Part shown: positions 618-33,502 of the stretch, piece by piece
How the letters are laid out: each line of letters begins with the position of its first letter
Numbering within the stretch: position 1 is the first letter of the stretch
NCBI GenBank assembly: GCA_022707885.1
Contig: JAKIZT010000001.1
Location: 96,233-160,232 of the forward strand
DNA from: Caldisericales bacterium
GTDB taxonomy: Bacteria; Caldisericota; Caldisericia; JAAYUI01
Reading direction: 5' to 3'
Length of the DNA: 64,000 nt
Made by a program: the position numbers and the translations under genes
The notes under the pieces: model-generated
Seen by the model: only the letters and a program-made list of their open reading frames with translations
Database searches by the model: none
Told to the model about the DNA's origin: nothing

Positions 618-645
618 TTGAAATTTAAACTTTGTTATCTACAAT
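618..645 (+). promoter_or_regulatory. Predicted sigma-70-type promoter for the first propeller gene
   Basis: TTGAAA at 618-623, a 16-base spacer, then TACAAT at 640-645. It lies between the rpoC terminator and the gene starting at 671, which fits a separate transcription unit with a ~20-base leader carrying an AGGAGGG ribosome site. Confidence 0.7.
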
Positions 646-670
646 ACTTGTTGCCATAGGAGGGACAAAC

Positions 671-4786: not shown

Positions 4787-4797
4787 GGGAGGGCAGA

Positions 4798-7563
4798 ATG
4801 AAAAAAATTATCGCTATTTTGATTTCACTGGTGGTTTTTTGCTCAATTACACCATCGATAACAACCGCAGAAGATGATGACAACAACAGCTGCATTTATC
4901 CAATGTTTGGTGGAGATGAAGAACATTCGGGTGTTGCTCAAGATCATTGCATTGAAGATGTTTCACTTCTGAAGAAAAAATGGGAATCCAAGATGCCTGA
5001 ATCAGACTTAATTGGTGTGCAGTCACTTGTGACTGCAAAAGGGCAAATTTATACCATCACAGAAGATCTTGATTTCAAAAAAATAAGGATGCATTGCCTG
5101 AGATCAACCGATGGCAAAATCATATGGTCAAGACAGCTAGATTTTCCAATGCTATTTTCCCAAATGGCAACTTCAGGCGAGAAAATCTTTTACGGTGATG
5201 CTATGGGTATGAAATGTTTTTCAACAAAAAGTGGCATGCCCCTATGGAACTATGATGTTGATATCTCAGAGGTAATGCAAACAATCATTTACTCCCCGAA
5301 ACCAACAATCTACAACGACCAGATATACACAACTTTTGGTCCTGGGAAAATCGCATGTTTTTCCTTGGGAGGAAAGATCTGGCTTGATAAAATTACAAGT
5401 AGTCCAAATTACTACTCCTATTCATCTCCAATCATATCCAATAATAAATTATTTGTATTAATGGATAATCTTTATTGTTTATCTCCATCAAATGGTCGTC
5501 AAATCTGGAGTTCATTTGTTGGCAATGGTGGAACAGGTTTGGCAAACATTTCTTCGTACAAAGACAAAATCATTGCATCAATAGAGCAAAGGGCTTCTAA
5601 TGCAAATTATTTTGCAAATGATGATGATGAAGATAAGCCGACACCAAATACAGTAATCTGTGTTGACCAGGAAAAAGGTAAAGTCTTATGGAAATTTAAA
5701 ACTGAAGATGACATCTTTTTTGGTTTTGCAGTTGATCAGGATTCAAATTCAGTTTTTTTTGGCTGCGTAGATTCAAAAATGTACGGGCTCGATGTGGAAA
5801 CAGGAAAAGAGAAATGGAACCTTACATTGCCAGAAAGGGTAATTGGTTCTCCTACAATTTTTGGAAAATACATTCTTGTTGGGTGTTACGATAATAATCT
5901 TTACTGTATAAACAAACTTTCTGGCAAAATAGCAGCGAAGTATGAGACCAATGGAGCTGTTTCAACATCACCCGCCGTTCTGGACAACATGGTCATTGTT
6001 TCAACAATAGACAACAACATAATCTGCTTCGAGGGGAAATCTGGTCCAAAACCAACTTCAATTGATATTTCTCCAAAGAATCCAACCGCTTTTGTAAATG
6101 AAAAGATGCAATTTGAAGCGACAGTTCTTGACCAGGATGGCAAAAAAATCATTGGTTTGCAACCGGTTTGGAAAGTTGATCCTCCAAAATATGGCACAAT
6201 CGATCAGTTTGGAGTTTTCCTTCCAGCTGAAAAGGGGAATTGCACTATTACAGCCTCAATTGGTAAACTCTCTGCATCTACAAATGTTGAAGTTTACATG
6301 AAACAGCCACTGGAGTTTACAGAAATATTGGATTTTGGCGAAGTTGAACAAGACACGACACTTACAATCCAATTCACAATAAAAAACCCCGAACCATACG
6401 AAGCAAAATTCAAAATATCTACAAAAAGCAAGTGGATTACATTTGATCCTTCAAGCGGGAAAATTGACCCTGAAAACACAATAACCATCAAAGCGACAGC
6501 AAATCCTGAATCGCTTGAGATGGATCAAATTGTGACCGAAAAAGCAGAGCTTGAATATAATTATGGCGAAGGCGAAATCACTATCCAGGTCCAAAAAACA
6601 TACAACCCACCACCACTCCTTGCACCAAAAGAAATTGAACTGACTGGGATCAAACAGGGCGAGAATATTAAAAAGTCATTCCAAATAATCAACCAGGCAA
6701 AAAAGGAATACAAGATAAGCTGCAAGTCCGCCACGCCATGGTTGAAAGTCCCAGGAGAAGAAATGATTATCCCAGCAGACAACGAAGCCACTTTTGAATT
6801 CGAAATATCAACGAATGGCCTGGCACTAAGTAAAACACACACTGGCATAATCATAGTTAAATGGCCAAAGGGTGAACTAGAGCTGCCTGTAAAAGTTGAA
6901 ATGGTGAAAGATGTTACGCCACCCAAAATAACAATCGATAAGATAGGAGACCTGGTAAATCAGGATTCCTATGTAATTATGGGTAGTGCCGATGAAACTG
7001 TAACTGCTAAAGCTATTTTTGGCGGCATCGAAATAAATGGAAAACAAAACACCCCAAACACATTTGCTATTACTGTCCCGCTAAAACCGGCCCCAAGCAA
7101 AAATGTATTCAAGATTGAAGTAATTGACGAGTCAGGCAACAAAACAACGGCTGATGTTGTGATTATAAATATTGCCGAAAAGAGAGTGGAGCTCAGTGTT
7201 GGCAGTCAAACTATGATGGTTGATGGGGTTGAGGTTCAAATTAATCCTCCGCCTTATATAAAGGGTGGAACAACTATGGTTCCACTGAGAGCAATCGCAG
7301 ACGCATTTGGGGCTGAGGTCAATTACGATGGGAAAACCAAGGGCATCTCGATAAAATATGGCAAGATAAAAATAACTATGGTTGTGAATAAAACAGAGGC
7401 CATTGTAAACGGGAAGCGTGTAAAAGTATCACCTCCTCCTGAAACACATAAATCCGGAAGAGTAACAGTGCCATTCAGATTTATAGCTGAGGCATTTGGG
7501 GCTGAGATTACTTATGATGCCGCTACAAAATCGATAATTCTCACAAAACAAATACGTCCATAA
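4798..7563 (+). CDS. Exported beta-propeller protein with Big2, BACON, Ig-like and stalk domains
   Basis: A paralogue of the preceding gene (921 residues) with one propeller instead of two. The start at 4798 follows GAGGGAGGG and gives a signal peptide (MKKIIAILISLVVFCSITPS...). Domains in order: a PQQ-type propeller (about 25-420, with blades such as MYGLDVETGKEKWN and LYCINKLSGKIAAK), a Big2-like domain, two BACON-like domains, an Ig-like domain ending near DESGNKTTADVV, and a stalk pair with VPLRAIADAFGAEV and VPFRFIAEAFGAEI. The stalk module is shared with five other exported proteins in this window and is probably the part that sits at or near the cell wall. It is co-transcribed with the upstream gene (11 bases between them) and is followed by a terminator. 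Function beyond a surface scaffold or binding role cannot be read from the sequence. Confidence 0.9.
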   Translation: MKKIIAILISLVVFCSITPSITTAEDDDNNSCIYPMFGGDEEHSGVAQDHCIEDVSLLKKKWESKMPESDLIGVQSLVTAKGQIYTITEDLDFKKIRMHCLRSTDGKIIWSRQLDFPMLFSQMATSGEKIFYGDAMGMKCFSTKSGMPLWNYDVDISEVMQTIIYSPKPTIYNDQIYTTFGPGKIACFSLGGKIWLDKITSSPNYYSYSSPIISNNKLFVLMDNLYCLSPSNGRQIWSSFVGNGGTGLANISSYKDKIIASIEQRASNANYFANDDDEDKPTPNTVICVDQEKGKVLWKFKTEDDIFFGFAVDQDSNSVFFGCVDSKMYGLDVETGKEKWNLTLPERVIGSPTIFGKYILVGCYDNNLYCINKLSGKIAAKYETNGAVSTSPAVLDNMVIVSTIDNNIICFEGKSGPKPTSIDISPKNPTAFVNEKMQFEATVLDQDGKKIIGLQPVWKVDPPKYGTIDQFGVFLPAEKGNCTITASIGKLSASTNVEVYMKQPLEFTEILDFGEVEQDTTLTIQFTIKNPEPYEAKFKISTKSKWITFDPSSGKIDPENTITIKATANPESLEMDQIVTEKAELEYNYGEGEITIQVQKTYNPPPLLAPKEIELTGIKQGENIKKSFQIINQAKKEYKISCKSATPWLKVPGEEMIIPADNEATFEFEISTNGLALSKTHTGIIIVKWPKGELELPVKVEMVKDVTPPKITIDKIGDLVNQDSYVIMGSADETVTAKAIFGGIEINGKQNTPNTFAITVPLKPAPSKNVFKIEVIDESGNKTTADVVIINIAEKRVELSVGSQTMMVDGVEVQINPPPYIKGGTTMVPLRAIADAFGAEVNYDGKTKGISIKYGKIKITMVVNKTEAIVNGKRVKVSPPPETHKSGRVTVPFRFIAEAFGAEITYDAATKSIILTKQIRP

Positions 7564-7836: not shown

Positions 7837-8787
7837 TTATTTGGGCAATTTTCTCTCAAAACCTTTTCCAACAACCTCTGAGAGGTCGGACACCATCATA
7901 AAAGATTCCTGATCAGCCTCCCTTATAAACTCCTTTATCCTGCTTACCTGAGATTGAGGGACTGCGCAAATAACCATTTTCTTGGGATCAAAGCGATAGC
8001 CGCCTTCAGCATCCAGTATTGTAACGCCTCTCCCAAGTTTATCCATGATTACATTTCTTATCTTGTCGCACTCATTGGTGATAATTATTACAAGTTTTGT
8101 TGATGTCATCCCGGATGCAACCATATTCAAAACCATTGAGTAGATAAAAAGGGTGATGATTGAATAAAGGGCCAATTGAATATTTCTAAAGTACAACGTC
8201 ACAATAGCGATGATAACCGAATCAAGAACCAAGACAGCTTTTCCATATTCATAACCAGTCGACCAGTACAAAAGTTGGGAAATGATCTCGGTTCCTCCAG
8301 CACTTCCTCCGCTTCTGAAAATTAGACCAACACCTATTCCAAGGAGAACTCCTCCAAATATGGATGCCAAAATATAATCTGGCCCACTTGGAAAGATATT
8401 GAGTTTTGGAACTATAAACATGGCGCATAAATCCATGGTAGCTGATGAAACAGCAATAGCAACACCAGTCCTTAAGAGGTATCTTGGTCCAAGAAGTTTG
8501 AACGCCCACAGGAACCCCGGGATGTTCATGAGGAAGTAAGCAAGACCTACGGGAAAACCGGTAGCGTTATTGATGATAATGCCAAAACCATTCAACCCAC
8601 CTGGGGCTAATTGTGCTGGGACAAGAAAAGTCACCTGACCAAAGCCAAATATCACGGCTCCTATAACAAGTTCTGAATACCTTACGGTTTCATGCCAGAT
8701 AGAACCAGAAAAAAAGGGCGTTTTCTTACCCGCCCTTTTTTTCTGACCATCTTCTGTAGTAATAATCCTATTATTTTGGTTTTTCAC
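7837..8787 (-). CDS. YitT-family integral membrane protein (DUF161 + DUF2179)
   Basis: A multi-pass membrane protein of about 316 residues. The core matches the YitT family: FLVPAQLAPGGLNGFGIIIN, PVGLAYFLMNIPGFLWAF, GIGVGLIFRSGGSAGGTEII and a C-terminal DUF2179 domain with LGRGVTILDAEGGY. The function of the family is not established. The start is uncertain. GTG at 8787 is preceded by GGAG at good spacing and overlaps the end of the upstream protease gene by 17 bases, giving translational coupling. However, it adds ~30 hydrophilic residues, and a terminator-like hairpin lies inside those codons (16-27). No better-supported ATG or GTG start lies between the hairpin and the first membrane segment. 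Stop is TAA; no clear terminator follows. Confidence 0.82.
   Translation of the reverse strand: MKNQNNRIITTEDGQKKRAGKKTPFFSGSIWHETVRYSELVIGAVIFGFGQVTFLVPAQLAPGGLNGFGIIINNATGFPVGLAYFLMNIPGFLWAFKLLGPRYLLRTGVAIAVSSATMDLCAMFIVPKLNIFPSGPDYILASIFGGVLLGIGVGLIFRSGGSAGGTEIISQLLYWSTGYEYGKAVLVLDSVIIAIVTLYFRNIQLALYSIITLFIYSMVLNMVASGMTSTKLVIIITNECDKIRNVIMDKLGRGVTILDAEGGYRFDPKKMVICAVPQSQVSRIKEFIREADQESFMMVSDLSEVVGKGFERKLPK
8709..8742 (-). terminator. Terminator-like hairpin after the first subtilase gene, inside the yitT 5' coding region
   Basis: A perfect 12-bp inverted repeat (AAAAAAAGGGCG and CGCCCTTTTTTT) with a 10-base loop, giving a seven-T run on the minus strand. It begins 28 bases past the stop of the subtilase gene, the normal place for its terminator, yet falls within codons 16-27 of the next gene if that starts at 8787. 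Confidence 0.8.
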
Positions 8788-11700
8788 TTCTTTCTCCAAA
8801 ATGTTTAGAGAAGTAGATAAAGTCTTTTTCGTCGATGACTTTGTCCCTGTTAATGTCGCACAGCTTGTTGTAGTCTGGATCTCCTTCTTTCTTACCAAAC
8901 TGCTGACCGAAAATAACAAGGTCTTTGTCATCTACCACCCAGTCTACGTTGAAATCACCGATCAAAAGGTATCGCTCGGTTATCAGCACCTCGACTGGCA
9001 ACGGTCTTACGAATCTAATATTTTTAATCTCATTGTCAAGTATTTCTACAAAAGAAGTATCAAACTCCGTTCCACCAACCCTGTTGCAAGTAAAATCAAT
9101 CTCCATGAGGTCACCTGTTCCATCCAATGTTAAACCAGCATAAGATGGCGAGATCTCCACGGTCATTTTCCCATCCTGATTGTCCTCGATTGAGATCATT
9201 ATACTTGTTGAATCTTCGGTCATTGAACCTCTTCTGTATTGACCAGTATATGTAACCATTTTTGCATCATAGAGCAGAGAGAACCTTATGACCTTGTTTT
9301 GGCTCGACCTTGCAAGGGACATTTTCACTGTGAGTGTTTTATTCAACGCACCAAACTCTGGGTTAACACTAAGATTTAGTTCAGGAAGTGGCAATTTGTC
9401 CGAGCCAATCACCTCCACCCAGGCTTGGGCATCCCTTGGCACCGAGCTTTCAACAAGCTTATTTTGCATACTGCCAACGATAGCTTCATAATACATAAAA
9501 CTCCCCAAGCCATTTGGCCCATTTGGCAAGAATAATTCTCCATCAATATCTTTTCCATCCCATTCAAATTCATAATCACCTGGAATGAGATAATTGCCTT
9601 CATAAATATCTCTCCACCTATCCAGGATCTTATCTAGAACAGATATCCTCGTCATATAGGCAAAATTGTCATATTGATTGCCCCAGAAGAATGATTTTGA
9701 GCCAGCCCCAACATGGAACTTGACTGTTCCAGGTTTTTCACCCTGGGCAACATCAATCTTGTCGTTCTGCACGAGAAGGTTTGAAAACGATTTAAGAGAG
9801 TTATAAATCTCTATTTCGCCAAACAAAGCCATGAACGGGACGTGGATCTGGGTTGAATTGTCGATGGTGATTTCAATTGAGCCCTCAACAACTCTATTCT
9901 TTGGAACCTTCTGTTTGTCCAGAGTTATTTTAAGATCAAGTGAGGCCGTTGCATCCCTTGGTGAGGATTGTGGTGGCGGAGATACTACTTCGTCTGATTG
10001 GGTAATTGATATGCCAACACCTTCGACATCCCCGACAAAGGTCACTTTGGAAGTGAATTTTACTGTCGCCCTCTTCAGATCAACATTGACAAGATTTATC
10101 TTTACTCCATCCTTGTAGTTACCACCATGGAAGGTAAATGCTGGAGGATCCGTTATTACTGGCGTTGTACAAGCATCATAAACATTGGCAAGCCCTGATC
10201 CCTGGATTACCAACGGATAGGGATCACCATTGAGTGGATTGATTTGAAACTTGGCCGTATTCATAAGTGAGGCTTTGATTTGCCATGGCAGCCAGTCAGG
10301 ATGATAGCTCTTTACAAGTGCTGACATGCCAGTCACAAATGGTGCTGCCATCGATGTTCCAGAATATGAGTCCCAAGCATCCTTCGGGTTCTTCTCATCA
10401 TAAACTGTTGAAAAAATCCACATTCCAGGCGCAGAAACTTCTGGTTTGAATTTCAGGCCCCTTGGTCCAAGGTACGGACCAGTCGAGGAAAAATCTCCAG
10501 GGTAGGATATTCTCTTGAAATGTATTTTCTGCCCTTCTTTTACTGCATCCAGAAGTATTTTTGCATCTCTTCTGTTCAGGGTATAGATGGGCACCGGGAA
10601 AGTCATTGCATCTTCGAAACTTTCAAAATAGGAGAGGGTAAATGGTGTTCCATCAAAACCATCGGACCAGAAAATGAAAGCTTTGCATTTGAGTGTTTTT
10701 AGTTTTCTAATAAAGCTTTGAGTTTCCAATCTGTGCCAGCTTCTAACATTGTCTTTATATTGAATGAGCAAAACCTTGCCAGCACAATCAGGAATTTTGT
10801 TGGCATCAGTGCCACCATCAACAACCTCATAAAGGGCATCATCAGGGTTTATGGATGGAAGGCCCCATATATGGTTGTTCGCCAACATCTTTTTTGTTTC
10901 ACCAGTTTTTGTCATTACCTCTATGAGGCATTTGCCACGCTCATCAGTTGCCGCAACACAGAGTGCTTCCTCTGTTACTGCCGGAACACCTATTGGTAAT
11001 GGCAACCTGTCTGAACGATAGCCATCATTTCCAGCCGCGACTACAACAAGCATTCCAGCTTTTGTGGCATTTTTTATGGCTTCATCTTCAACAGCATTCT
11101 CACCGCCATAATAAAGTGCTCTTCCAAGCGACATATTGGCAACAGCACATTTATCTTTTGCAGCCATCTCAAGCGCCGCAGCCACATTGTCCGGTCTTGC
11201 TCGGCCCTCATCGACGGTAAAAACCTTGTATGCACCAAAAGTAGCTTCCGGAGCGACACCGGTTATTGGAGTATCAAGATACTTGCCATTGGCACCAATT
11301 ATTCCAGCACAGTGTGAGCCATGTCCCATAAAATCAAGTGGGTCAGAATCTTTATCGGCAAAATCATACCCAAATTTGACCCTTCTGCCCCAACCATCAC
11401 CAAGAGCAAGATGTTTATAGTTGATTCCACTATCAATAACACCGACTCTTATGCCAGCACCTGTTGCTTTTTTACCATCAGGCGTTCCTATCTGCCTCAG
11501 TTTTGTTACACCAAGGTATGGAAGGTGCTTGTTGATCTGCATTTCATATCTGAATGTTGCATCAACAATTTTTTTCACCGAAGGCAGTTTGGCAAGGTCA
11601 ATCAATTTACTCGCATCTACTTCACAAGAAAAACCATTAATCACGGTATTAAAAACCCATCTTTTTGTGAGATCAGGTGAAATAGACTTGCATCGCAGAT

Positions 11701-11956
11701 AAACGCTCTCTACGGAATTGTTTATACAAGACTCAATCGTTCCCTGGAAGAATTTGTTGGAATAAGAAAGGTTACCAACATAATCGACAACAGTCTTGTC
11801 ACCAGTGATTATTATGACATTAACGGTGCCTGTTTTTCCAATTAGAGCTTTGTCTATTTTTGCATACCCATAATCCTGGGCTGCAAAAGAGGGACCGCAA
11901 AAAAGAAACATGGAAAAAATGATAAGACCTACAACAATGTTTTTGAGTATTTTCAT
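8771..11956 (-). CDS. Exported subtilisin-like serine protease (S8) with cohesin-like and dockerin domains
   Basis: A secreted peptidase of 1061 residues starting at an ATG preceded by GGAGGGG. Signal peptide: about residues 1-25. An inhibitor-like propeptide region precedes the S8 catalytic domain. The catalytic triad is visible as Asp175 (VGVIDSGINY), His212 (GHGSHCAG) and Ser535 (GTSMAAPFVTG), with oxyanion Asn310 (AAGND). A protease-associated (PA) insertion lies between the Asn and the Ser. After the protease come beta-rich domains, a cohesin-like domain near residue 870 (LNLSVNPEFGALNKTLTVKM) and a dockerin of two calcium loops at the end (GDFNVDWVVDDKDL and CDINRDKVIDEKDF). It is the third of three such proteases on this strand. 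Active peptidase function is likely; the dockerin suggests docking to a cohesin partner at the surface. Confidence 0.93.
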   Translation of the reverse strand: MKILKNIVVGLIIFSMFLFCGPSFAAQDYGYAKIDKALIGKTGTVNVIIITGDKTVVDYVGNLSYSNKFFQGTIESCINNSVESVYLRCKSISPDLTKRWVFNTVINGFSCEVDASKLIDLAKLPSVKKIVDATFRYEMQINKHLPYLGVTKLRQIGTPDGKKATGAGIRVGVIDSGINYKHLALGDGWGRRVKFGYDFADKDSDPLDFMGHGSHCAGIIGANGKYLDTPITGVAPEATFGAYKVFTVDEGRARPDNVAAALEMAAKDKCAVANMSLGRALYYGGENAVEDEAIKNATKAGMLVVVAAGNDGYRSDRLPLPIGVPAVTEEALCVAATDERGKCLIEVMTKTGETKKMLANNHIWGLPSINPDDALYEVVDGGTDANKIPDCAGKVLLIQYKDNVRSWHRLETQSFIRKLKTLKCKAFIFWSDGFDGTPFTLSYFESFEDAMTFPVPIYTLNRRDAKILLDAVKEGQKIHFKRISYPGDFSSTGPYLGPRGLKFKPEVSAPGMWIFSTVYDEKNPKDAWDSYSGTSMAAPFVTGMSALVKSYHPDWLPWQIKASLMNTAKFQINPLNGDPYPLVIQGSGLANVYDACTTPVITDPPAFTFHGGNYKDGVKINLVNVDLKRATVKFTSKVTFVGDVEGVGISITQSDEVVSPPPQSSPRDATASLDLKITLDKQKVPKNRVVEGSIEITIDNSTQIHVPFMALFGEIEIYNSLKSFSNLLVQNDKIDVAQGEKPGTVKFHVGAGSKSFFWGNQYDNFAYMTRISVLDKILDRWRDIYEGNYLIPGDYEFEWDGKDIDGELFLPNGPNGLGSFMYYEAIVGSMQNKLVESSVPRDAQAWVEVIGSDKLPLPELNLSVNPEFGALNKTLTVKMSLARSSQNKVIRFSLLYDAKMVTYTGQYRRGSMTEDSTSIMISIEDNQDGKMTVEISPSYAGLTLDGTGDLMEIDFTCNRVGGTEFDTSFVEILDNEIKNIRFVRPLPVEVLITERYLLIGDFNVDWVVDDKDLVIFGQQFGKKEGDPDYNKLCDINRDKVIDEKDFIYFSKHFGERSEKPK

Positions 11957-11973
11957 ATCCCCTCCATGTCTAC

Positions 11974-12003
11974 AAAAAAAGGGAGGCCAAAAGGCCTCCC
12001 TTT
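11974..12003 (-). terminator. Intrinsic terminator after the NHL/cohesin/stalk gene
   Basis: An 11-bp stem (AAAGGGAGGCC with GGCCTCCCTTT), a four-base loop and a seven-T run on the minus strand, starting just after the stop at 12014. The next protease gene starts 18 bases further on, so some readthrough or a promoter inside the upstream gene must serve it. Confidence 0.93.
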
Positions 12004-12013
12004 CAAAAATTCA

Positions 12014-15000
12014 TCAGGGCTTCGGGTGAGTGATTGTTATCTGCTTGTTTGAAGCCTCATACTTTACATCAGCACCAAGTCCAGATGAGATGGCACGTAG
12101 CGGTACAAGTGTCCTTCCACCAATTATCTTTGGCGCCTTACCAAAATCTAGTGGCGAGCCATTGAGTCTTCCCATGGTTTTGTCAATCCAGGCCTCAAGG
12201 ACTGTTTGTGCACCAGAGCATGGGTCAGTATATGTGTATGTTGCTTTCTTTTCTTTAGCGTCCCAGTCAACAACACAACTTAGAGCATTTCCAAGGTCAC
12301 GCATTGGAACATATGTTGAACCACCGATAAGCTGTGGAGCAGCATTAAGGTTCATGTTGGAACCATTAACCATGTAGACAAGCTTTCCAACCCACATAAC
12401 AACGACATTTCTTGTTGCCTGATTGATTGTAAAGGTATAGTCTTTTGAATTGCCAGCTGGATCGGTTGCGGTGATTGTGAAGTTGTTGGCACCCTTTTTC
12501 AAGTTCACTGTAAACTTGAAGCTTCCATCCGCACCAACTTTTATATCCTGGCTTCCATTAACAGTCTTGAGTACGAGTTTCGCATCTTTTTCAGTGGTCC
12601 CGGAACCGGCAAATGAAGCATCCCAAGAACACTTTGGAATATTGACATTTACTGGTGGTGGCGTGCTGTCTTTTGGCAATACTTTAACTTTGGCATTTGT
12701 GACTGAAACCTGGATATTGTTAAGATCTGGGTCCTTAACTAACACCTCTGATACTTCGAGCTTTGTGTCGCCCTCTTTAACACCAATAAAACGGAACTTT
12801 ATAAGTACGCCTTCACCATTCATTCCAGCAACCGCTGATGTTCTTGTTGGGCCACCAATTTTTACTGTACCCTTCGGCTCATCCTTGTAGATGAAGAGGT
12901 TTTTGTTTCCATCAGAGGAGAGGAAATTCCCCTGTTCACACTTGTCAAGCTGGAGATACTGCGGGTCATATTTGAGTGTCATACCAACACCATAGACATT
13001 TGATGCATACCTGATGCTGACATTGATGTCTGATGATCCGCCTGATGGAATCTTCACATCTGATGGCTGGAAATAAATCTCACCATCTGACGGGATGTTT
13101 TGTGGAGCTGGTGGCTGTGGTGGAAGCGGTGGTTCTGGACCAGTTTCACCGATTCCTGGCGGTGTGTAACCATTGATGTTGAGCCTGTAAACTACATTGT
13201 GGAAATTATCCGTGAGATAAACCTTCTGGTCCTTGCCCCAGCACATTCCCTGCGGAACATAGAACATGCGAGGAGAGGTGTATGTGGCCGTGAAATCAGA
13301 ACCTTCTTTGCGCTCGAAGATCTGAATTCTTCCATTTTCACCATCAGAAACGATTACTGCTCCATTATTTGCGAAAAGAACTCCATGGGGATAATAGAGT
13401 TGTCCTGGTTTTCTTCCCTGACCACCCATACTGGCGATGTCTCTGCCTTTTTTGTCAATGACAACTATCTGTCCATCGGTTGCACAGGCCATATTGCGGA
13501 ATGGGTCGACCGAGACATTGCTTGGTGAAGTATTGACGCCAAGTTCATCTCTTTTTCTTCCCTTGCTTGTAAATATAATCACTGACTGTCTTGCTCTGTC
13601 GGCAACATAAAGGTTGTCCATACGATCAACACACAGACCTGCTGGAGTTCCAAGATCACCTTTTCCGATTTGCTCGGATGAGTAAGAAATAGCGGTCCTT
13701 GAATTTGGGGTTATTGTTGAAAGCATTTCGGAGCCAGTTGCAATCTTTATGATGTAACCTGGAACTTCACCCCTAAAACCTTCATTGACAGAAACATAGA
13801 CATTATCGTATGAATCAACTGTTACATCAGAGAAGAGAGCTTGATTTGAAAGATTAAGATCATCGGTCGAAATCGAGTTCTGGTAGTTTCCTTTTGCGTC
13901 CCAAACAAGAATATTGCTAGCGTATTTGCCACCCTGATCAACATTGATGTTTGAAACAGCGTAAAGTGTACCATCTGAAGTCACGGCACACGAGGTGATG
14001 TTTCCACCCCTGCCCTCTTGCATCGGATTGTACGACTCTTCACCCTTTTTAGAACCTGACTTGTCAAACTTGATGAGTCTTTGCGAGCTTGGCACAATAA
14101 ACGGGTTGTCAATAGAGACTCCAGACCCTGGATTGATTGAACCATAAACATGGAGGTAAACACTGTCTCCTCCAACTGCAATACCATCAAGATATTCATC
14201 ATTGGAAGCAACACTCTGGAACCTTGACTTCTCTTTTCCGTCCTTGTCAAAAATCTTCACTGCGTTTGAACCATCTGCACGATCAAGGAGATAGAATGTC
14301 CCGTCTGAACCAACTTCAAAAGCACCCAGCTTTTTAAAAATGGGATTTTTTTCGTCGGTTGATTTAACAACTGCTTTTACAAAGTCACCGGATGGCTTGA
14401 ATTGATAAATGGTCCCACTTTTCATTTCTGCAACAAAGATTTCCCCATTTGGTCCAATTCTGATCGGTCCAGGAGAATCAAGGGCAACAGTCTCACTTCC
14501 AACATTCATTAAGTTTTTAAATTTGAAGGAAGAATCAAACTTTTGTATTCTGGCTGTGTTGCCATCGGAAACATAAATATTTCCATCGCTATCAACTGCT
14601 ATTCCACCTGGTGCAATAAACTGCCCGTTCTCCTGGCCTTCAGAGCCAAAAGCGCCAATAAATTTGCCATATTTGTCCCATTTTGAAACCTGGCAATTAT
14701 ACATGTCTACAAAATAAAGGTTGCCATCCCCATCTTCGGCACAATCCACTGGATACTGAAACTTACCATCGCCAAAACCAAGGGATCCAAAAACACTCTT
14801 GTGGGAGAGATCCGAGCCAAGCACATGAACTCTTCCATAGGCGGTATCGGCAACTATCAAATTGCCATCACTTGTTACCTTCATCGCACACATCGGATAA
14901 TAGTAACCAACCATATAGTCAGACTCTACTGTATTCGGGCCTGAAAGGTTGAATGAGCCGATGTAAGAATCAGGCATTACACCATAAACTTGCTCCACTG

Positions 15001-15097
15001 TAATCTTCACATCGGAGGCGACGGTGTTTCGAGCCATGATGACTGGCAAACCTGCCAGCACGGCAACTGCGACAATCAATGCAAGCGCTTTTTTCAT
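12014..15097 (-). CDS. Exported NHL beta-propeller protein with cohesin-like, Ig-like and stalk domains
   Basis: A secreted protein of 1027 residues with a signal peptide (MKKALALIVAVAVLAGLPVI...). NHL-type blades fill about residues 50-640: repeated units such as PGGIAVDSDGNIYVSDGNTA and PAGLCVDRMDNLYVADRARQ. A proline-rich linker (PEPPLPPQPPAPQ) leads to a cohesin-like domain (about 675-815, beginning EIYFQPSDVKIPSGGSSDIN), an Ig-like domain (about 825-900) and two stalk repeats with VPMRDLGNALSCVV and VPLRAISSGLGADV. It carries a cohesin but no dockerin, making it the plausible scaffold for the dockerin-bearing proteases on either side. It starts 16 bases after the upstream protease stop, so it is co-transcribed; only a weak GAAAGGG ribosome site is present. 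Confidence 0.9.
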   Translation of the reverse strand: MKKALALIVAVAVLAGLPVIMARNTVASDVKITVEQVYGVMPDSYIGSFNLSGPNTVESDYMVGYYYPMCAMKVTSDGNLIVADTAYGRVHVLGSDLSHKSVFGSLGFGDGKFQYPVDCAEDGDGNLYFVDMYNCQVSKWDKYGKFIGAFGSEGQENGQFIAPGGIAVDSDGNIYVSDGNTARIQKFDSSFKFKNLMNVGSETVALDSPGPIRIGPNGEIFVAEMKSGTIYQFKPSGDFVKAVVKSTDEKNPIFKKLGAFEVGSDGTFYLLDRADGSNAVKIFDKDGKEKSRFQSVASNDEYLDGIAVGGDSVYLHVYGSINPGSGVSIDNPFIVPSSQRLIKFDKSGSKKGEESYNPMQEGRGGNITSCAVTSDGTLYAVSNINVDQGGKYASNILVWDAKGNYQNSISTDDLNLSNQALFSDVTVDSYDNVYVSVNEGFRGEVPGYIIKIATGSEMLSTITPNSRTAISYSSEQIGKGDLGTPAGLCVDRMDNLYVADRARQSVIIFTSKGRKRDELGVNTSPSNVSVDPFRNMACATDGQIVVIDKKGRDIASMGGQGRKPGQLYYPHGVLFANNGAVIVSDGENGRIQIFERKEGSDFTATYTSPRMFYVPQGMCWGKDQKVYLTDNFHNVVYRLNINGYTPPGIGETGPEPPLPPQPPAPQNIPSDGEIYFQPSDVKIPSGGSSDINVSIRYASNVYGVGMTLKYDPQYLQLDKCEQGNFLSSDGNKNLFIYKDEPKGTVKIGGPTRTSAVAGMNGEGVLIKFRFIGVKEGDTKLEVSEVLVKDPDLNNIQVSVTNAKVKVLPKDSTPPPVNVNIPKCSWDASFAGSGTTEKDAKLVLKTVNGSQDIKVGADGSFKFTVNLKKGANNFTITATDPAGNSKDYTFTINQATRNVVVMWVGKLVYMVNGSNMNLNAAPQLIGGSTYVPMRDLGNALSCVVDWDAKEKKATYTYTDPCSGAQTVLEAWIDKTMGRLNGSPLDFGKAPKIIGGRTLVPLRAISSGLGADVKYEASNKQITITHPKP

Positions 15098-15113
15098 TTA
15101 GACTGCCCTTTCT

Positions 15114-18100
15114 TCACTCACTTTTGCCAAGATTATTAAGCAATACTTTCAAATCTTCGAAGTCAATAATACCATCCGAGTTGAAATCAGCAAGAGGGTT
15201 GTAGTGTAGTTCATCCCTCTTTGTGCCATACGATTGCGCGAAAATAAAATAGTCTTCCATATCTACAATTCCATCGAAATTGAGGTCGCCAAGTAGTGGT
15301 TCGACATCGGTAACTTCGAGTTCCAGCGGGAAACCCATGTGTGGGATCAACCTTCCTCTTGGATCATATGGACTAAGATCATCAAATTTAATTGTTGGGG
15401 CAGACGGGTTGGGGAAGATGGCCAAGAACTTCAGAATGATACCATGTCCGCTAATGCCAGTTTGATTTGCTCTCTTGGAAATAACTTTGATTTTACCATT
15501 GATATCATCAAGATAAACATCGGATTCAACCGGCGAGCCATCTGACTGGAGGAATCTCCCAGGCCAAACCTGGAGTATTTTAACCTCATCCGGATTGTAG
15601 GCTACATTGAAATTAAGCGATGAAATATCCTTTGCAAATGTCACATAGCAATCCACAAGAACCTTCTGGTTGGCAGAAGGTGTATGCGGTTGTGCAACCA
15701 TAAAGAACCTCGGTGGACTTTGCACTTTGCTTCCATTTATTCTTATAGTGTCTTTTGCGATCTGCGATGAATTCTTGGTTTTCAATTTGGCGCTTCCTGG
15801 CTCCAAGACCGTTTCGCTAATAACAATCTTGAGACCATAAGAACCGTCAGGTATTGAATGTACACCCTCGGCATCTTCACCAAACCAGTCAAATTTGTAG
15901 TAACCATACTGGGTGTTCTCAAAGCGTTTTATTGTTACCCATGTATCGCCATTACCATCAATAAGGTCAAACTGGACACCAGAAATCATAGTTTCTCTTG
16001 GCTGTGGAGCTTCCTCGTCGCTCTGCATTTTATAAAAAAGAGGTTTGTATGTAAACTTATCGCCCATCGCAACACCAAACTCGATGGTTACCTTATCGCC
16101 TTTTCCATCATAATTGATGTTGTTTCCTGTAACTTTGAGTGAGGTAATATTTCTTTTCTCGCTTGCGGCATAACCTTTCCAGCAAATGACCGGAACATGC
16201 AACTTTATCTTGTCGCTTTCGAACCAAATAACGCACTCCACATTCCATGGGATTTCAGTTGCGGAATAGTCAATGGAGAAAGTGTATGTTGATTCATTTT
16301 TTGAAGGCACACTTACAGTCTCCTGACCAGTAAATTTGACATAATCATCAAGCTTATTCAGAACTTCAAATCTCACTTTGAAATTCGCATCAGTACCAAG
16401 GCCCTTGAATGTAAGTTTTATGTCCTTTGATTTGTCTTTTGTGACTATCAACCCTCCCGGTGAAATAACACATGGGGTAGATGCTGCCATTTTGGCATTT
16501 ATCTGTCCAGCACCTTGCAACAGAAAACTGGAATATTCACCAGTTGTTGGATTGATAAGAAGTTTCGATGTGTTCATAAGAGCAAGTCTTGTATCGGATG
16601 GTGTCCAATCAGGATTGGCCTGTTTTATCAATGCAACGGCTCCAGACACAATACCAGCACTTGCAGAAGTACCAGAGAAATTCTGTGTATATTTCGAGGT
16701 GTTTCCATCAGCTGAACTTGTCGAGAGAGGAGCAGGCACTCCAATCCCAGGGGCGCAGACATCCGGTTTGAACGTCAGGTCCGATGTTGGACCAATAGCC
16801 GTCATTCTTGCCACTGTATCGGCATTTTCTTCTGTTACAGAGGCCCTGACTTCCTGGCTCGAGACAAGCTTTTGAAGGAAGAGCCCGTCAGAATTTCCTA
16901 TAAAACATGATGGGACAATTTCTTCGTTTCTTATTGGTTCTCCAGTTATCGAGTTGAAACCAACAAACATCTGGAAAACTTCTCCAAGGCTATGATTCCA
17001 GATAATTGCACCAACAGCACCTCTCTTTTTTGCGTTGAGTAATTTCTGGAAGAATGGGATTGCTTCTCCAATCTCCGGCCCTCTTTTTATAAGAACATAT
17101 TTGCCAAGAACATTGGTTTTTGAAAATTCCTCTTCGGAGCCGTATCCGCCATCAACAAGTTCGATGGATTGTGGTCCAGCAAATGGAAGGAGTGGCACAG
17201 ACATCATTCCAAAAATACTTCTGTTTGAGCCTTCAATTTTTACCCTGCAAGCTGGCCTGGTGTCTGAAGAACCAACACATATCGAATCAAGGGCCAGGGA
17301 TGGCCCACCAACCGTTCCACCTTCAACGCCATCACAATAAACTCCAAAATCACCGGCTGATCCAACAACTGAAATACCAGCATTTGTTGCCTGTTCTGCT
17401 GCAAGAGCAGAGGCTGAAAGTTCGGAGGAGCTGCCGCCTGGTCTTGCCAGAGAGATATTGATTACCTTGCATCCATCTTTTACGGCTGCCTGGATTGCCG
17501 CAATAACAACATCTTCCATTACATCTGGGTTTTTGTTTGAGAGAACCTTGTAAGACATCAATTTTGCGCCTTGAGCAATACCCGGTGCTTTTGTGTTGTC
17601 TGCAGCGATAATTCCTGCTACTAAAGTTCCATGTCCCATTACTTCATCATCAAGCGGCGGAGCTTTTGGCTCCACAAAATTGGATCCACCTATCACCTTT
17701 GCACCAGGTCCATACATTCCATTTCCAAGGTCCTGGTGTCTATAATCTATTCCAGAATCGATCACACCGACAAGAATGTCTTTGCCATTGACAAAATTAC
17801 CGCTTTGATCTTTAACTTCATAAAGCGGTGAAGCCCCAACTGTTTCAGCAATAGTCCTGACTGCTGCTGGCGCTAGACTATTAATTTTCGTAATCGACTT
17901 AACAAATGACAAATTCTTTACTACTTCAACATCCTGCTTATCAAGCTCGACAGACATTCCATTTAAAAGGTAATCAAAATCAAACCTGAACGAAGCCGAG
18001 TGGCAATTTTTTCTGATAGCATCTTTCGCACTGGCAAGCAAAGTTTTTGACACGAGCATTGAATGGATAGGCGAAAAACCCATACTTTCCATTCTACAAG

Positions 18101-18215
18101 CCGATTCACCATTAATGGTAACCAGATAGACGTCAGAAGCCGACAAGACCCGGCTGGCCGGAAAAAGACCTGCCGAGAGAACAAAAATCAAAGCCCAAAC
18201 CAGGTATCTTCTCAT
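15114..18215 (-). CDS. Exported subtilisin-like protease (S8) with cohesin-like and dockerin domains; altered oxyanion residue
   Basis: 1033 residues; ATG at 18215 with AAGGAGC upstream and a signal peptide ending near RVLSAS. The triad is present as Asp153 (VIDSGIDYRH), His195 (GHGTLVAG) and Ser517 (GTSAS). Two departures from the family are visible. The oxyanion-hole Asn is Asp289 (GSAGDFG instead of AAGNxG), and the usual MAAP after the catalytic Ser is SASAG, with no proline. A PA domain sits inside the catalytic domain. At the C terminus there is a cohesin-like domain (PRFFMVAQPHTPSANQKV onwards) and a two-loop dockerin (GDLNFDGIVDMEDY and ADFNSDGIIDFEDL). The enzyme may be slow or specialised; loss of activity is possible but not shown. 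Confidence 0.92.
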   Translation of the reverse strand: MRRYLVWALIFVLSAGLFPASRVLSASDVYLVTINGESACRMESMGFSPIHSMLVSKTLLASAKDAIRKNCHSASFRFDFDYLLNGMSVELDKQDVEVVKNLSFVKSITKINSLAPAAVRTIAETVGASPLYEVKDQSGNFVNGKDILVGVIDSGIDYRHQDLGNGMYGPGAKVIGGSNFVEPKAPPLDDEVMGHGTLVAGIIAADNTKAPGIAQGAKLMSYKVLSNKNPDVMEDVVIAAIQAAVKDGCKVINISLARPGGSSSELSASALAAEQATNAGISVVGSAGDFGVYCDGVEGGTVGGPSLALDSICVGSSDTRPACRVKIEGSNRSIFGMMSVPLLPFAGPQSIELVDGGYGSEEEFSKTNVLGKYVLIKRGPEIGEAIPFFQKLLNAKKRGAVGAIIWNHSLGEVFQMFVGFNSITGEPIRNEEIVPSCFIGNSDGLFLQKLVSSQEVRASVTEENADTVARMTAIGPTSDLTFKPDVCAPGIGVPAPLSTSSADGNTSKYTQNFSGTSASAGIVSGAVALIKQANPDWTPSDTRLALMNTSKLLINPTTGEYSSFLLQGAGQINAKMAASTPCVISPGGLIVTKDKSKDIKLTFKGLGTDANFKVRFEVLNKLDDYVKFTGQETVSVPSKNESTYTFSIDYSATEIPWNVECVIWFESDKIKLHVPVICWKGYAASEKRNITSLKVTGNNINYDGKGDKVTIEFGVAMGDKFTYKPLFYKMQSDEEAPQPRETMISGVQFDLIDGNGDTWVTIKRFENTQYGYYKFDWFGEDAEGVHSIPDGSYGLKIVISETVLEPGSAKLKTKNSSQIAKDTIRINGSKVQSPPRFFMVAQPHTPSANQKVLVDCYVTFAKDISSLNFNVAYNPDEVKILQVWPGRFLQSDGSPVESDVYLDDINGKIKVISKRANQTGISGHGIILKFLAIFPNPSAPTIKFDDLSPYDPRGRLIPHMGFPLELEVTDVEPLLGDLNFDGIVDMEDYFIFAQSYGTKRDELHYNPLADFNSDGIIDFEDLKVLLNNLGKSE

Positions 18216-18246
18216 TGAAGCTCCTTAAATCTAGTATCGCGTAAGA

Positions 18247-18252
18247 ATTATA
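18247..18252 (-). promoter_or_regulatory. Candidate -10 element for the second subtilase gene
   Basis: TATAAT on the minus strand, about 30 bases upstream of the ATG at 18215, in the 61-base gap between two protease genes. The -35 match at 16-base spacing (TAGCAT) is poor, so this is a tentative internal promoter. Confidence 0.35.
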
Positions 18253-18276
18253 CCAAAATGAAATGCTTATGCTAGT

Positions 18277-21200
18277 CTATGGGTACATTGTTTGCCCGTA
18301 GTGTTTTGCCAGTATTATAAAGTCAATTACGGTTATTTGTCCATCTCCATCAAAATCCATCGATTCAGTATAGTTTTCTTCACCTTCAGATGTCCCAAGA
18401 TGGTACATGAGTATGTCACCATCAAGCTCATCAATAACACCATCCATATTTAGATCATAAAAACTGTAGCCCTTTTTTATCTCAAAAACTGCTTTGTGAG
18501 GTATTGGGGCAATTTGGCCAAAAGAAGAGGTTGCAGTGCATTCTTTTATGGAAACGCTTGAAGTACCTTCCTGGTGCGAGATGCATTCAATAGCGAAAAT
18601 AGTGCCCTTGAAATCCACTGAAGAATCATTGGTGGAAAGATATTTTATACCCACCTTGCCCTTTTCATTGTCGATAGCATTTTCAAACAAAACATTTTCT
18701 TTGGAGTTGCCATAAACATCCAATGCTTTTATAGAGCTCACATGATAAAATGCGGGATCAGTATCAATATCCAGTTTTATAGAAGACAAGTTTGGAATAA
18801 AACTCGTTTTTACAAGAAGAAGGAAGGGCTCTTCAGGACGCGGTTTTTCTGGGACACACTTAATAAATATCAGGGGTTTTTCTTTTAGAGGTGCACCAAC
18901 AATTGAAATTGGCTTCATTTGATGGGGTGACTGCTCCACGATTGTACCACTGGAATTGGCCGAGAGGCCAAATGCATTTACAACATAATCTCCATCTTTT
19001 ACAAAAAGCCTTCCAAGATTGTCCGGCCCTTTCCACATAACATTGTGATAGCCTATCTCCAGGGTATCATCAAAAAATATGTTGCCAATTGGATTTTGTC
19101 CATCGTCATACAGAACAATTTTTGCTGCACCATAATTTGACGAAACATCCTGCCCCGGACCACCAGACATGAAGGTACCATAATTGAACCTGAAGCTGAT
19201 TGTTGTCCCAGCCTCACTACCCTCACCATGCGTCATAATCGATTTGCTGACCCTTAAGTCAGAAACTTGCGGCGGGACATCCGGAGAACCATTAAGGATT
19301 ATCAGCGGGAGATGAACACTCTCCTGGCCCATATTGGCAAAAATTACACCCTCAAGAAAACCTTTTGAATCGTCATCACAAATAAAAGATGCCGTTATTG
19401 TCTTTGTTTCGCCCGGTTTTAGTTTCTCTGTTTCCCTGTCAAAATTGCATTTTGTGGTATCTCCCAGGGAGTGATAACTCAAGCTAAATTCAACCTGTTT
19501 TTTTGAAATGTTTGTCACCTTGAAAGAAGCCTGCTTAACTGATTGGGAAATCGCCCTCAAGGAAAGCGCGGGCGGATCGAATATCATTTTGGCGCTAAGC
19601 GCAGCAGGAATATTGATTCTTCCAGATCCTTGCGACATTAAAGGAACATATTCTCCAGCTTCATCATTACGAAGCAGATCACATGTCGCCATAAATATAG
19701 CCTTGATCTGTTTTGGTTCGGCTTTTGGATACGCTTGTCTCAATATTGCAGAAGCTCCTGCAACATGAGGGCCAGACATTGATGTCCCTTGCATAACTGC
19801 CCACTGGGGATCTCTTTTTTTTGGGTCAGTACTGTTTGGTTTTGTTGTTACGGTGCTTTTTATGCCCACGCCAGGTGCAGTGACCTCAGGTTTAAAATAA
19901 TAATCGGCAGACGGTCCGGATGAAGAGAAATCTGCTATCTGGCCAAAAGGTTTTCCTGAAGACACTTTCACTTTAAGACCCTTCGCTATTAATGACTGGA
20001 GCTTAAGACCCTGAACATTTGTGATCGCAAGTGCAGGTATAAACTTCTTTTCCAGGTCTGTATCATCTATTTTCATGGTTCCCGCAAAAGAGCCAGGGCT
20101 ATGGTTGTAGATTATGCAACCTGTCGCGCCTGCTTTTGCTGCATTGAGGTCTTTGTCCCTAAAATAGGCATTTTTGTCAGTTATCGGGCCCCTCTGTATC
20201 AGGGCTACCTTGCCTTTGACGTCAATACCCTCAAAATCGCTCGGGTAACCATATCCACAATCAACAACTTCCCATTCACCATCTGGCCATTTCGGAGGAA
20301 GATCAAATTCCCTTCCCAGAATGCGCATATTTTCACCAGGTGGATTTGTTATGGAAATCTCCGGGTGCTTCATGTCATCAGATGCAGCCACAGAAATGAC
20401 TGGCATATAAGTGCTTGGGGTCCCTACAACATAAGGTTGGGTAAGACAGCGTGAGCCATTGTTACCTGCAGACGCAACAACGACGATGCCGGCCTTTACA
20501 ACCTTGTGATAGATTGAATTTCCTTCTTCGCCACCAGTGCTCCCTCCTGGAGAACCTAGCGAAAGGTTTACTACTCCGCACTTTGATGTGATTGCTTTCT
20601 CAAGTGCAGCATTGATGTTTGCACCAACATTGACCGATCTACCCTTCTCACTGGTAAAAACTTTATACCCTGCGAGATTTGCGCCCGGGGCAACACCCTT
20701 GACTTTTCCATTTGCTGCACAGATTCCAGCAACATGCGTTCCATGTTGTTCTGTGTCGTTAGATATATCAGCACCATCGGCGAAATCATAGCCATCAACA
20801 ACTTTTTCCTTCGAGCCCATTTTTGAGCCAAGGTCGGGATGGCGCCAGTCAAGACCGGTGTCTATTACACCAATGATAACCCCTGTTCCGGTTAAAGGTT
20901 GGCGATTCTGGTCAAGCATCTTCCAGGCATCATTGGCACCTATGACGGTTGTTGATGTATCAAGATCAAGCTTGTAATCTGGAATTCTTTCAATGCTCTT
21001 GACCCCAGGGATGCTAGCCAGTCTTTTAATATTTTGTGATTTTATCTTGCAGGCAAAACCTTTTGTGAGAATGCTGTATTTTTGATAAATCTGCTCGACT
21101 ATACCCTGACAGTTTGAGAATATGAAAGATTCAACTGATTTCATTGTTTCGCGTCTGGCAAAGGCAAGCGATGAATCCAGGGAGATTGAGTTTGTCTGAA

Positions 21201-21351
21201 CATAATTTTGTGGCAGGAAGTCCACAACAGTGTTGCCATTCAAAACTACCAGCATGTCAAGACAAATATCGGGCCTGTTTTCAACTGCATAAACAGGTTG
21301 TACCATCAAAATAATGGTCGCTACAAGAACAAGACTGAGATGGCGTCTCAT
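18277..21351 (-). CDS. Exported subtilisin-like serine protease (S8) with PA, cohesin-like and dockerin domains
   Basis: 1024 residues; the ATG at 21351 follows GGAGGT and opens a signal peptide (MRRHLSLVLVATIILMVQPV). Propeptide-like residues 30-130 precede a complete S8 catalytic domain: Asp164 (IIGVIDTGLDWRHPDL), His203 (HGTHVAGI), oxyanion Asn297 (ASAGNNGS) and Ser524 (GTSMSGPHVAG). A PA domain is inserted at about 360-460 (KVALIQRGPI, AGATGCIIYNHSPG). A cohesin-like domain (starting PLIFIKCVPEKPRPEEP) and a dockerin (YDLNMDGVIDELD and MDFDGDGQITVIDF) end the protein. It is the first gene of the minus-strand protease cluster and has a strong promoter. The TAG stop shows that amber is an ordinary stop in this genome. 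Confidence 0.94.
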   Translation of the reverse strand: MRRHLSLVLVATIILMVQPVYAVENRPDICLDMLVVLNGNTVVDFLPQNYVQTNSISLDSSLAFARRETMKSVESFIFSNCQGIVEQIYQKYSILTKGFACKIKSQNIKRLASIPGVKSIERIPDYKLDLDTSTTVIGANDAWKMLDQNRQPLTGTGVIIGVIDTGLDWRHPDLGSKMGSKEKVVDGYDFADGADISNDTEQHGTHVAGICAANGKVKGVAPGANLAGYKVFTSEKGRSVNVGANINAALEKAITSKCGVVNLSLGSPGGSTGGEEGNSIYHKVVKAGIVVVASAGNNGSRCLTQPYVVGTPSTYMPVISVAASDDMKHPEISITNPPGENMRILGREFDLPPKWPDGEWEVVDCGYGYPSDFEGIDVKGKVALIQRGPITDKNAYFRDKDLNAAKAGATGCIIYNHSPGSFAGTMKIDDTDLEKKFIPALAITNVQGLKLQSLIAKGLKVKVSSGKPFGQIADFSSSGPSADYYFKPEVTAPGVGIKSTVTTKPNSTDPKKRDPQWAVMQGTSMSGPHVAGASAILRQAYPKAEPKQIKAIFMATCDLLRNDEAGEYVPLMSQGSGRINIPAALSAKMIFDPPALSLRAISQSVKQASFKVTNISKKQVEFSLSYHSLGDTTKCNFDRETEKLKPGETKTITASFICDDDSKGFLEGVIFANMGQESVHLPLIILNGSPDVPPQVSDLRVSKSIMTHGEGSEAGTTISFRFNYGTFMSGGPGQDVSSNYGAAKIVLYDDGQNPIGNIFFDDTLEIGYHNVMWKGPDNLGRLFVKDGDYVVNAFGLSANSSGTIVEQSPHQMKPISIVGAPLKEKPLIFIKCVPEKPRPEEPFLLLVKTSFIPNLSSIKLDIDTDPAFYHVSSIKALDVYGNSKENVLFENAIDNEKGKVGIKYLSTNDSSVDFKGTIFAIECISHQEGTSSVSIKECTATSSFGQIAPIPHKAVFEIKKGYSFYDLNMDGVIDELDGDILMYHLGTSEGEENYTESMDFDGDGQITVIDFIILAKHYGQTMYP

Positions 21352-21572: not shown

Positions 21573-21602
21573 ATTATAAGCAAGGCCCAAACAGTTTGTC
21601 AA
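21573..21602 (-). promoter_or_regulatory. Promoter of tRNA-Asp
   Basis: TTGACA (21602-21597), an 18-base spacer and TATAAT (21578-21573) on the minus strand, 15 bases before the tRNA 5' end. Confidence 0.75.
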
Positions 21603-33337: not shown

Positions 33338-33392
33338 TAATTTATCCTCCTTTAAAGGTAGGGTTCCGCATTTGTGCGGATTAGCGAAACCG

Positions 33393-33420
33393 AGTATAAT
33401 TGCGGGGTAGTTAAAAACAA
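33393..33420 (-). promoter_or_regulatory. Promoter of the SLH/nucleotidase-like gene
   Basis: TTGTTT (33420-33415), a 16-base spacer and TATACT (33398-33393) on the minus strand, ~55 bases upstream of the ATG. A small stem (TCCGCA-TTTG-TGCGGA, 33365-33380) lies in the leader. Confidence 0.65.
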
Positions 33421-33502
33421 GATTCACAAGGAAAATTTGGGTTAGGTTAAATGTATTAACGAAACATAGTTTAACCATAGTCTGGCAATGCTTTGTGCTT
33501 GG

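Follow-up and report, generated by a model that had tools for sequence, protein, structure and literature searches.

Dockerin-tailed proteases and a probable one-socket surface anchor in Caldisericia

Cohesin-dockerin pairs are known mainly from polysaccharide degradation, and the Caldisericia, an anaerobic class, are little studied and hard to culture. A window of 64,000 nucleotides from a Caldisericales genome (the whole stretch analysed here, on contig JAKIZT010000001.1) raises the question of what dockerins might do at the end of secreted proteases. Its minus strand bears a run of four genes in the order P3, P2, anchor and P1, separated by intergenic gaps of 61, 16 and 57 nucleotides. Three of them encode S8 proteases (P1, P2 and P3), and the fourth encodes a protein with a single cohesin and a stalk domain (PF07833), hereafter designated as the anchor protein. 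The answer proposed below is that P1-P3 are probably held on the cell surface one per anchor, the anchor protein serving as a one-socket protease anchor.

18277..21351, minus strand: P3, predicted secreted S8 protease, 1024 amino acids (prodomain, S8 and PA, Ig, FlgD-type Ig, cohesin, dockerin)
15114..18215, minus strand: P2, predicted secreted S8 protease, 1033 amino acids, layout as P3, with Asp at the oxyanion-hole position
12014..15097, minus strand: anchor protein, 1027 amino acids (signal peptide, NHL propeller, cohesin, Ig, PF07833 stalk domain)
8771..11956, minus strand: P1, predicted secreted S8 protease, 1061 amino acids, with a cohesin-like domain and a dockerin

A sequence-only reading of this DNA had described three S8 proteases on one strand, each ending with a cohesin-type domain and a two-loop dockerin, and, between P2 and P1, a gene for an NHL/cohesin/stalk protein devoid of dockerin. 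Both descriptions proved accurate: the coordinates of all four genes were exact, the proteases were corroborated by Pfam and loop motifs, and the anchor protein displayed the expected Pfam domains, with no dockerin loop found in it by the Ca-loop motif check.

Dockerins and cohesins of the locus

Each protease carries a dockerin at its C-terminus:

18280..18459, minus strand: P3 dockerin, with two Ca loops, DLNMDGVIDELD and DFDGDGQITVID (PF00404, 29.9 bits; 35.0 bits in the genome search)
15117..15293, minus strand: P2 dockerin, with two canonical Ca loops (Pfam, loop motifs, class profile)
8774..8968, minus strand: P1 dockerin, with two canonical Ca loops (25.1 bits, above cut-off; class profile E 7e-18)

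In a whole-genome search with PF00404, P1, P2 and P3 scored 25.1, 23.8 and 35.0 bits, respectively, all above the Pfam cut-off of 22.9 bits. Together with this score, all three possess the two Ca-binding loop-helix segments that define type I dockerins, the second loop of P3 having a Thr at position 9. Dockerin profiles built exclusively from other families of the class also recovered them (E 7e-18 for P1, 4e-16 for P2 and 2e-14 for P3). When the profile of the protease C-termini was compared with the PDB, three blocks of matches were obtained, corresponding to FlgD-type Ig, cohesin and dockerin, with the best dockerin match at 5.4e-16. Chance dockerin-like EF hands are thus ruled out by the Pfam scores, the matches to PDB dockerins and the class-profile E-values.

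Cohesin or cohesin-like domains occur in all four proteins and differ in how clearly they can be recognised:

12668..13072, minus strand: single cohesin of the anchor protein (PF00963 above cut-off; PDB profile matches to cohesins; Foldseek 2xdh and 1ohz_A)
18478..18873, minus strand: P3 cohesin (PF00963; AlphaFold model, Foldseek 2vo8 TMt 0.83, 3ul4 0.81)
15321..15704, minus strand: P2 cohesin, less strongly supported (PF00963, 17.8 bits; class profile E 2.7e-5)
8987..9373, minus strand: P1 cohesin-like domain, marginal by sequence (class profile E 0.017; aligned position)

The identity of the anchor cohesin is certain. It scored 26.5 bits with PF00963, above cut-off, and E 1.9e-26 with the class profile; the profile of the anchor C-terminal region matched cohesins in the PDB and, outside the cohesin part, a single superoxide dismutase. 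An AlphaFold model of this C-terminus (pLDDT 89) gave as best Foldseek matches the Archaeoglobus fulgidus cohesin 2xdh (TMt 0.82) and 1ohz_A (0.80). The assignment of the P3 domain as a cohesin is supported by 26.5 bits in the PF00963 genome search, above cut-off, and by an AlphaFold model of the P3 C-terminus (pLDDT 80), the best Foldseek matches being Clostridium perfringens 2vo8 (0.83) and OlpA 3ul4 (0.81). For the anchor and P3 domains, a plain Ig fold is ruled out by the PDB profile matches and the Foldseek cohesin hits. Judged from sequence profiles, the P2 domain is a probable cohesin with weaker support than P3, and the P1 domain is a marginal candidate. The claim that the cohesin-like domains are cohesins thus stood for the anchor protein and P3, was less firm for P2 and marginal for P1.

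The same reading had counted five such domains in the window, which holds only if a marginal fifth is included. This stretch (class profile E ~0.02) lies ahead of the stalk domain of a large stalk-domain protein encoded by the open reading frame at 33581-38806.

The anchor cohesin and its possible partners

Besides its cohesin, the anchor protein is composed of three domains:

13163..15025, minus strand: NHL-repeat beta-propeller (PF01436, E 3.5e-26)
12419..12646, minus strand: Ig-like domain between the cohesin and the stalk domain (PF09136/PF19077)
12017..12418, minus strand: stalk domain PF07833, copper amine oxidase N-terminal-like, a proposed surface-binding module (E 1.3e-23; function by analogy with OlpC)

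With a single type I cohesin, a PF07833 domain and a signal-peptide-like N-terminus, this protein has the architecture of OlpC and ScaG. A single type I cohesin is combined with PF07833 in OlpC of Clostridium thermocellum and in ScaG of Acetivibrio cellulolyticus and C. clariflavum (PMC3413522), and the PF07833 domain of OlpC was reported to bind secondary cell-wall polymers, thereby anchoring the protein (PMC4582956). The likeness extends to the fold, the OlpC cohesin 4dh2 being among the matches of the anchor. Unlike OlpC and ScaG, the Caldisericia anchor also contains an NHL propeller and an Ig domain and is encoded in an operon with proteases, and no CBM3 (carbohydrate-binding module) match was found in its host genome. 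It is because OlpC and ScaG combine one type I cohesin with PF07833 that a one-socket surface anchor is the reading we favour. The "assembly" proposed by the sequence-only reading did not survive in its multi-enzyme sense, since a protein with one cohesin is no multi-enzyme scaffold.

Sequence conservation bears on which cohesin is the partner. Over nine lineages, with domain boundaries set by hand, the S8 domain averaged 43.3% identity between families and the dockerin 39.6%, a figure raised by the Ca-loop residues; the anchor cohesin reached 25.7% and the cohesin of the proteases themselves 15.8%. Based on these values, the anchor cohesin is favoured, indirectly, as the constrained partner, and the protease cohesin would have a structural or minor role. 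Of the folded modules compared, the protease cohesin is the least conserved, about level with the prodomain, a result that also bears on whether the proteases form a head-to-tail polymer, in which each protease would be bound through its dockerin by the cohesin of the following copy and the stalk protein would act as terminal anchor. Such chains are permitted by the anatomy, as the sequence-only reading had noted: P1-P3 and most S8 relatives of the class have a cohesin ahead of the dockerin within one chain, and the domain of P3 has a cohesin fold. Beyond the anatomy, the claim found no support, since it would make a binding partner of the fastest-evolving folded module compared (the 15.8% given above), one that is barely recognisable in P1 and missing from C25- and M6-like dockerin peptidases. 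We therefore regard head-to-tail polymers as unlikely.

According to the one-socket reading, P1-P3 would be exported and fold in the presence of Ca2+, after which their C-terminal type I dockerin would engage the anchor protein's lone cohesin; the PF07833 stalk domain would keep the anchor protein on the cell envelope, as its counterpart does in C. thermocellum OlpC. One enzyme would be bound per anchor at a time, P1-P3 and the C25- and M6-like dockerin peptidases competing for or sharing anchors, and peptides would be released beside the cell. The protease's own cohesin would mainly be a spacer or support ahead of the dockerin and might on occasion take up the dockerin of another enzyme. Domains, the folds of two cohesins, gene order, conservation and genome inventories were established directly. 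Dockerin binding, partner choice, surface location and physiological role (protein feeding or surface-protein trimming) are what we infer for this system.

Genome inventories narrow the choice of partners. Most of the Cryosericum genomes checked with Pfam (e.g., G005, G009, G013, G017 and G021) encode one dockerin along with two cohesins, one in the protease itself and one in its neighbour, so that the neighbour is the sole partner available in another protein. The window's genome is richer, with 11 dockerins and 6 cohesin matches in six different proteins (Pfam). Its dockerin cargo comprises the three S8 proteases, a C25 peptidase, an alpha/beta hydrolase, two PQQ-propeller proteins (one with cohesin-dockerin) and three proteins of ~570-580 amino acids encoded at one locus (L092, G000:C22:145001-161000), two with weak M6 metallopeptidase matches and the third with neither such a match nor any named catalytic domain; this list leaves out the C8 dockerin gene. 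The cargo therefore consists mostly of peptidases, and not of the carbohydrate-active enzymes that dominate a cellulosome. No CBM_3 match and no multi-cohesin protein were found in this genome, and a cellulosome or multi-cohesin scaffold is ruled out for it by its single-cohesin proteins and the missing CBM_3.

Three further dockerin-less cohesins were detected by Pfam in the window's genome, all on PF07833 proteins. Tethering might thus be real and proceed via these other stalk-domain cohesins, the adjacent gene then encoding a separate substrate-handling or sensing protein. Three additional cohesin/stalk proteins for a genome with eleven dockerins speak for this scheme, which does not fit the absence of any other cohesin from most of the Cryosericum genomes checked, nor the adjacency maintained in two paralogous pairs, and appears quite improbable. 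Cohesin proteins sampled across the class almost always had a stalk domain or a dockerin behind the cohesin; one had both and one was truncated. Four proteins from two lineages outside the phylum followed other plans.

The stalk domain itself is strikingly expanded in the window's genome (G000, 1.94 Mb), with ~100 PF07833 matches; the function of this domain is largely unknown.

Distribution in the class and related systems

Anchor orthologs occur throughout the class Caldisericia. The gene set was found in Caldisericum, in Ca. Cryosericum hinesii, Ca. C. terrychapinii and Ca. C. septentrionale, as well as in digester and sediment Caldisericales. A dockerin-tailed gene lies immediately 5' of the NHL/stalk gene in 30 of the 49 class genomes (25 were read directly; the window's genome and 4 known from named loci or coordinate tables make up the rest). 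Gaps in these conserved pairs range from -20 to +20 nucleotides. The 5' partner encodes an S8 protease or, in two cases, a C25 peptidase; the gingipain-type C25 peptidase with a dockerin is encoded between the S8 and anchor genes in two Caldisericaceae genomes (L055 and L064). Several Caldisericaceae of the Caldisericum type (G019, G015 and G023) have two paralogous protease/anchor pairs. That proteases are the cargo and the stalk-domain protein their anchor, as the sequence-only reading had proposed, is supported by homology, fold, gene adjacency, genome inventories and the OlpC/ScaG precedent.

Several observations weigh against a one-socket anchor. The operon offers a single anchor cohesin to three differing dockerins, and those of P1, P2 and P3 are unlike one another in the alignments at what we take to be the usual specificity positions; other stalk-domain cohesins of the genome could also be dockerin partners. 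The function of PF07833 is known from a Gram-positive host, and the Caldisericia envelope differs. Family f3 has kept the anchor with no protease adjacent to it, and families f5 and f6 have a short cohesin-Ig-stalk anchor lacking NHL. In a Caldisericaceae genus, g5 (G007 and G041; loci L104 and L150), the pair is adjacent and the protease has kept its dockerin, next to an NHL/stalk protein in which no cohesin was detected.

A dockerin retained beside an anchor with no detectable cohesin, as in g5, is what would be expected if this module were a Ca-stabilised C-terminal cap, packed on the preceding cohesin and having no intermolecular partner. The linker between cohesin and dockerin is short, as in X-module/dockerin pairs, and dockerin-like modules exist outside cellulosomes. 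Such a cap is hard to reconcile with the same dockerin family following unrelated Ig domains on C25- and M6-like peptidases, or with the class-wide co-occurrence of dockerins and cohesin/stalk proteins, and we consider it improbable.

As a broader proposal, stand-alone protease display, apart from any cellulosome, might be ancestral in Caldisericia, its minimal form in Cryosericum being either a 1:1 anchored protease or self-assembling chains capped by a stalk-domain anchor; this is rather doubtful, if conceivable.

Neither dockerin-tailed proteases nor cohesin/PF07833 anchors are new in themselves. In C. thermocellum, an S8 protease carries a double dockerin (dDoc_0689) that prefers the cell-bound ScaD cohesin (PMC12484212). 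This enzyme resembles P1-P3 in being an S8 protease with a dockerin tail; it differs in being a cellulosome accessory with two dockerins, whereas the proteases here have one dockerin each, behind a cohesin of their own, and the cargo consists mainly of peptidases. Dockerins also stand at the C-termini of secreted S8 and C25 peptidases that were proposed as cargo of a cellulosome-like complex in Ca. Stygibacter (Cloacimonadota) (PMC8542988). In contrast to the one-cohesin anchor and the lack of CBM3 matches reported here, that complex relies on a 3,755-amino-acid scaffoldin with tandem cohesins and CBMs, and its cargo includes glycoside hydrolases. The closest folds are those of non-cellulosomal cohesins from A. 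fulgidus (2xdh, TMt 0.82) and C. perfringens glycosidases (2vo8, TMt 0.83, and 2jh2), which differ in their cargo and genomic setting. The cohesin-dockerin principle has been reused for another substrate in the mucinolysome of Limousia (PMC12997984) and the amylosome; unlike the present system, both have several multi-cohesin scaffoldins and glycosidase cargo. The Caldisericia system would act like an anchoring scaffoldin and is not a cellulosome.

In Caldisericia, proteases are thus probably kept on the cell surface by the plug-and-socket principle of the cellulosome. In the open-licence literature searched, no report of dockerins in Caldisericia was found, nor of a class-wide protease/anchor pairing as the main system with an NHL propeller in the anchor. 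The class-wide set suggests that a lineage of anaerobes uses the cohesin-dockerin plug for feeding on protein as well, and some of the numerous PF07833 proteins in Caldisericia genomes would thereby gain a defined role. Partner choice could be studied in Cryosericum, whose single dockerin and pair of cohesins make it a minimal system provided by nature. The newly found cohesin-dockerin pairs, part of them from thermophilic relatives, might be of use as protein connectors.

Catalytic domains, transcription and neighbouring genes

Two further features concern the catalytic part of P3 and the start of the gene run:

19666..20889, minus strand: P3 S8 catalytic domain with PA insert (Pfam PF00082 E 1.5e-55, PF02225)
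21573..21602, minus strand: sigma-70-type promoter match 5' of P3, TTGACA-18-TATAAT, 12/12, a likely operon start (consensus match only)

With no strong terminator hairpin found between the four genes on the minus strand, P3, P2, anchor and P1 look like one transcription unit, judging from gene spacing and consensus matches.

The S8 domains of the three proteases, among 7 S8 matches in the window's genome, were recovered by Pfam at E 1.8e-53 (P1), 8.2e-49 (P2) and 1.5e-55 (P3), and all three N-termini are signal-peptide-like. The Asp/His/Ser motifs of the subtilase triad were located by regular expression in P1 and P2; in P3, Asp and His were found in the same way and the Ser motif, GTSMSG, was read by eye. 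The oxyanion-hole Asn is present in P1 and P3 and is replaced in P2 by Asp at about residue 285 (GSAGDFG versus AGN[DN]G), as it is in the P2 orthologs of loci L081-L084. A change of the same kind occurs in the proprotein convertase PC2, and the activity of P2 may be altered.

Another of these S8 matches, a protease of 989 amino acids (L155:1148-4117), has the S8/PA/FlgD-Ig arrangement of P1-P3 followed by a tail of Ig and PF07833, with no cohesin-dockerin. It is a directly stalk-fused counterpart of P1-P3, which, on the one-socket reading, would be joined to the stalk domain via the dockerin. In P3 and most S8 proteases of the class, the dockerin is followed by a conserved terminal Tyr/Phe-Pro (..GETYP, ..GDVYP), which does not occur in P1, P2 and the C25 proteins.

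Elsewhere in the window, two PQQ-propeller stalk proteins with PF07833, encoded at 632-4786 and 4783-7563 on the opposite strand, adjoin the protease operon. A gene at 29573-33478 encodes a 5'-nucleotidase C-terminal domain together with SLH domains, pointing to SLH-type surface attachment in the same genome as well.

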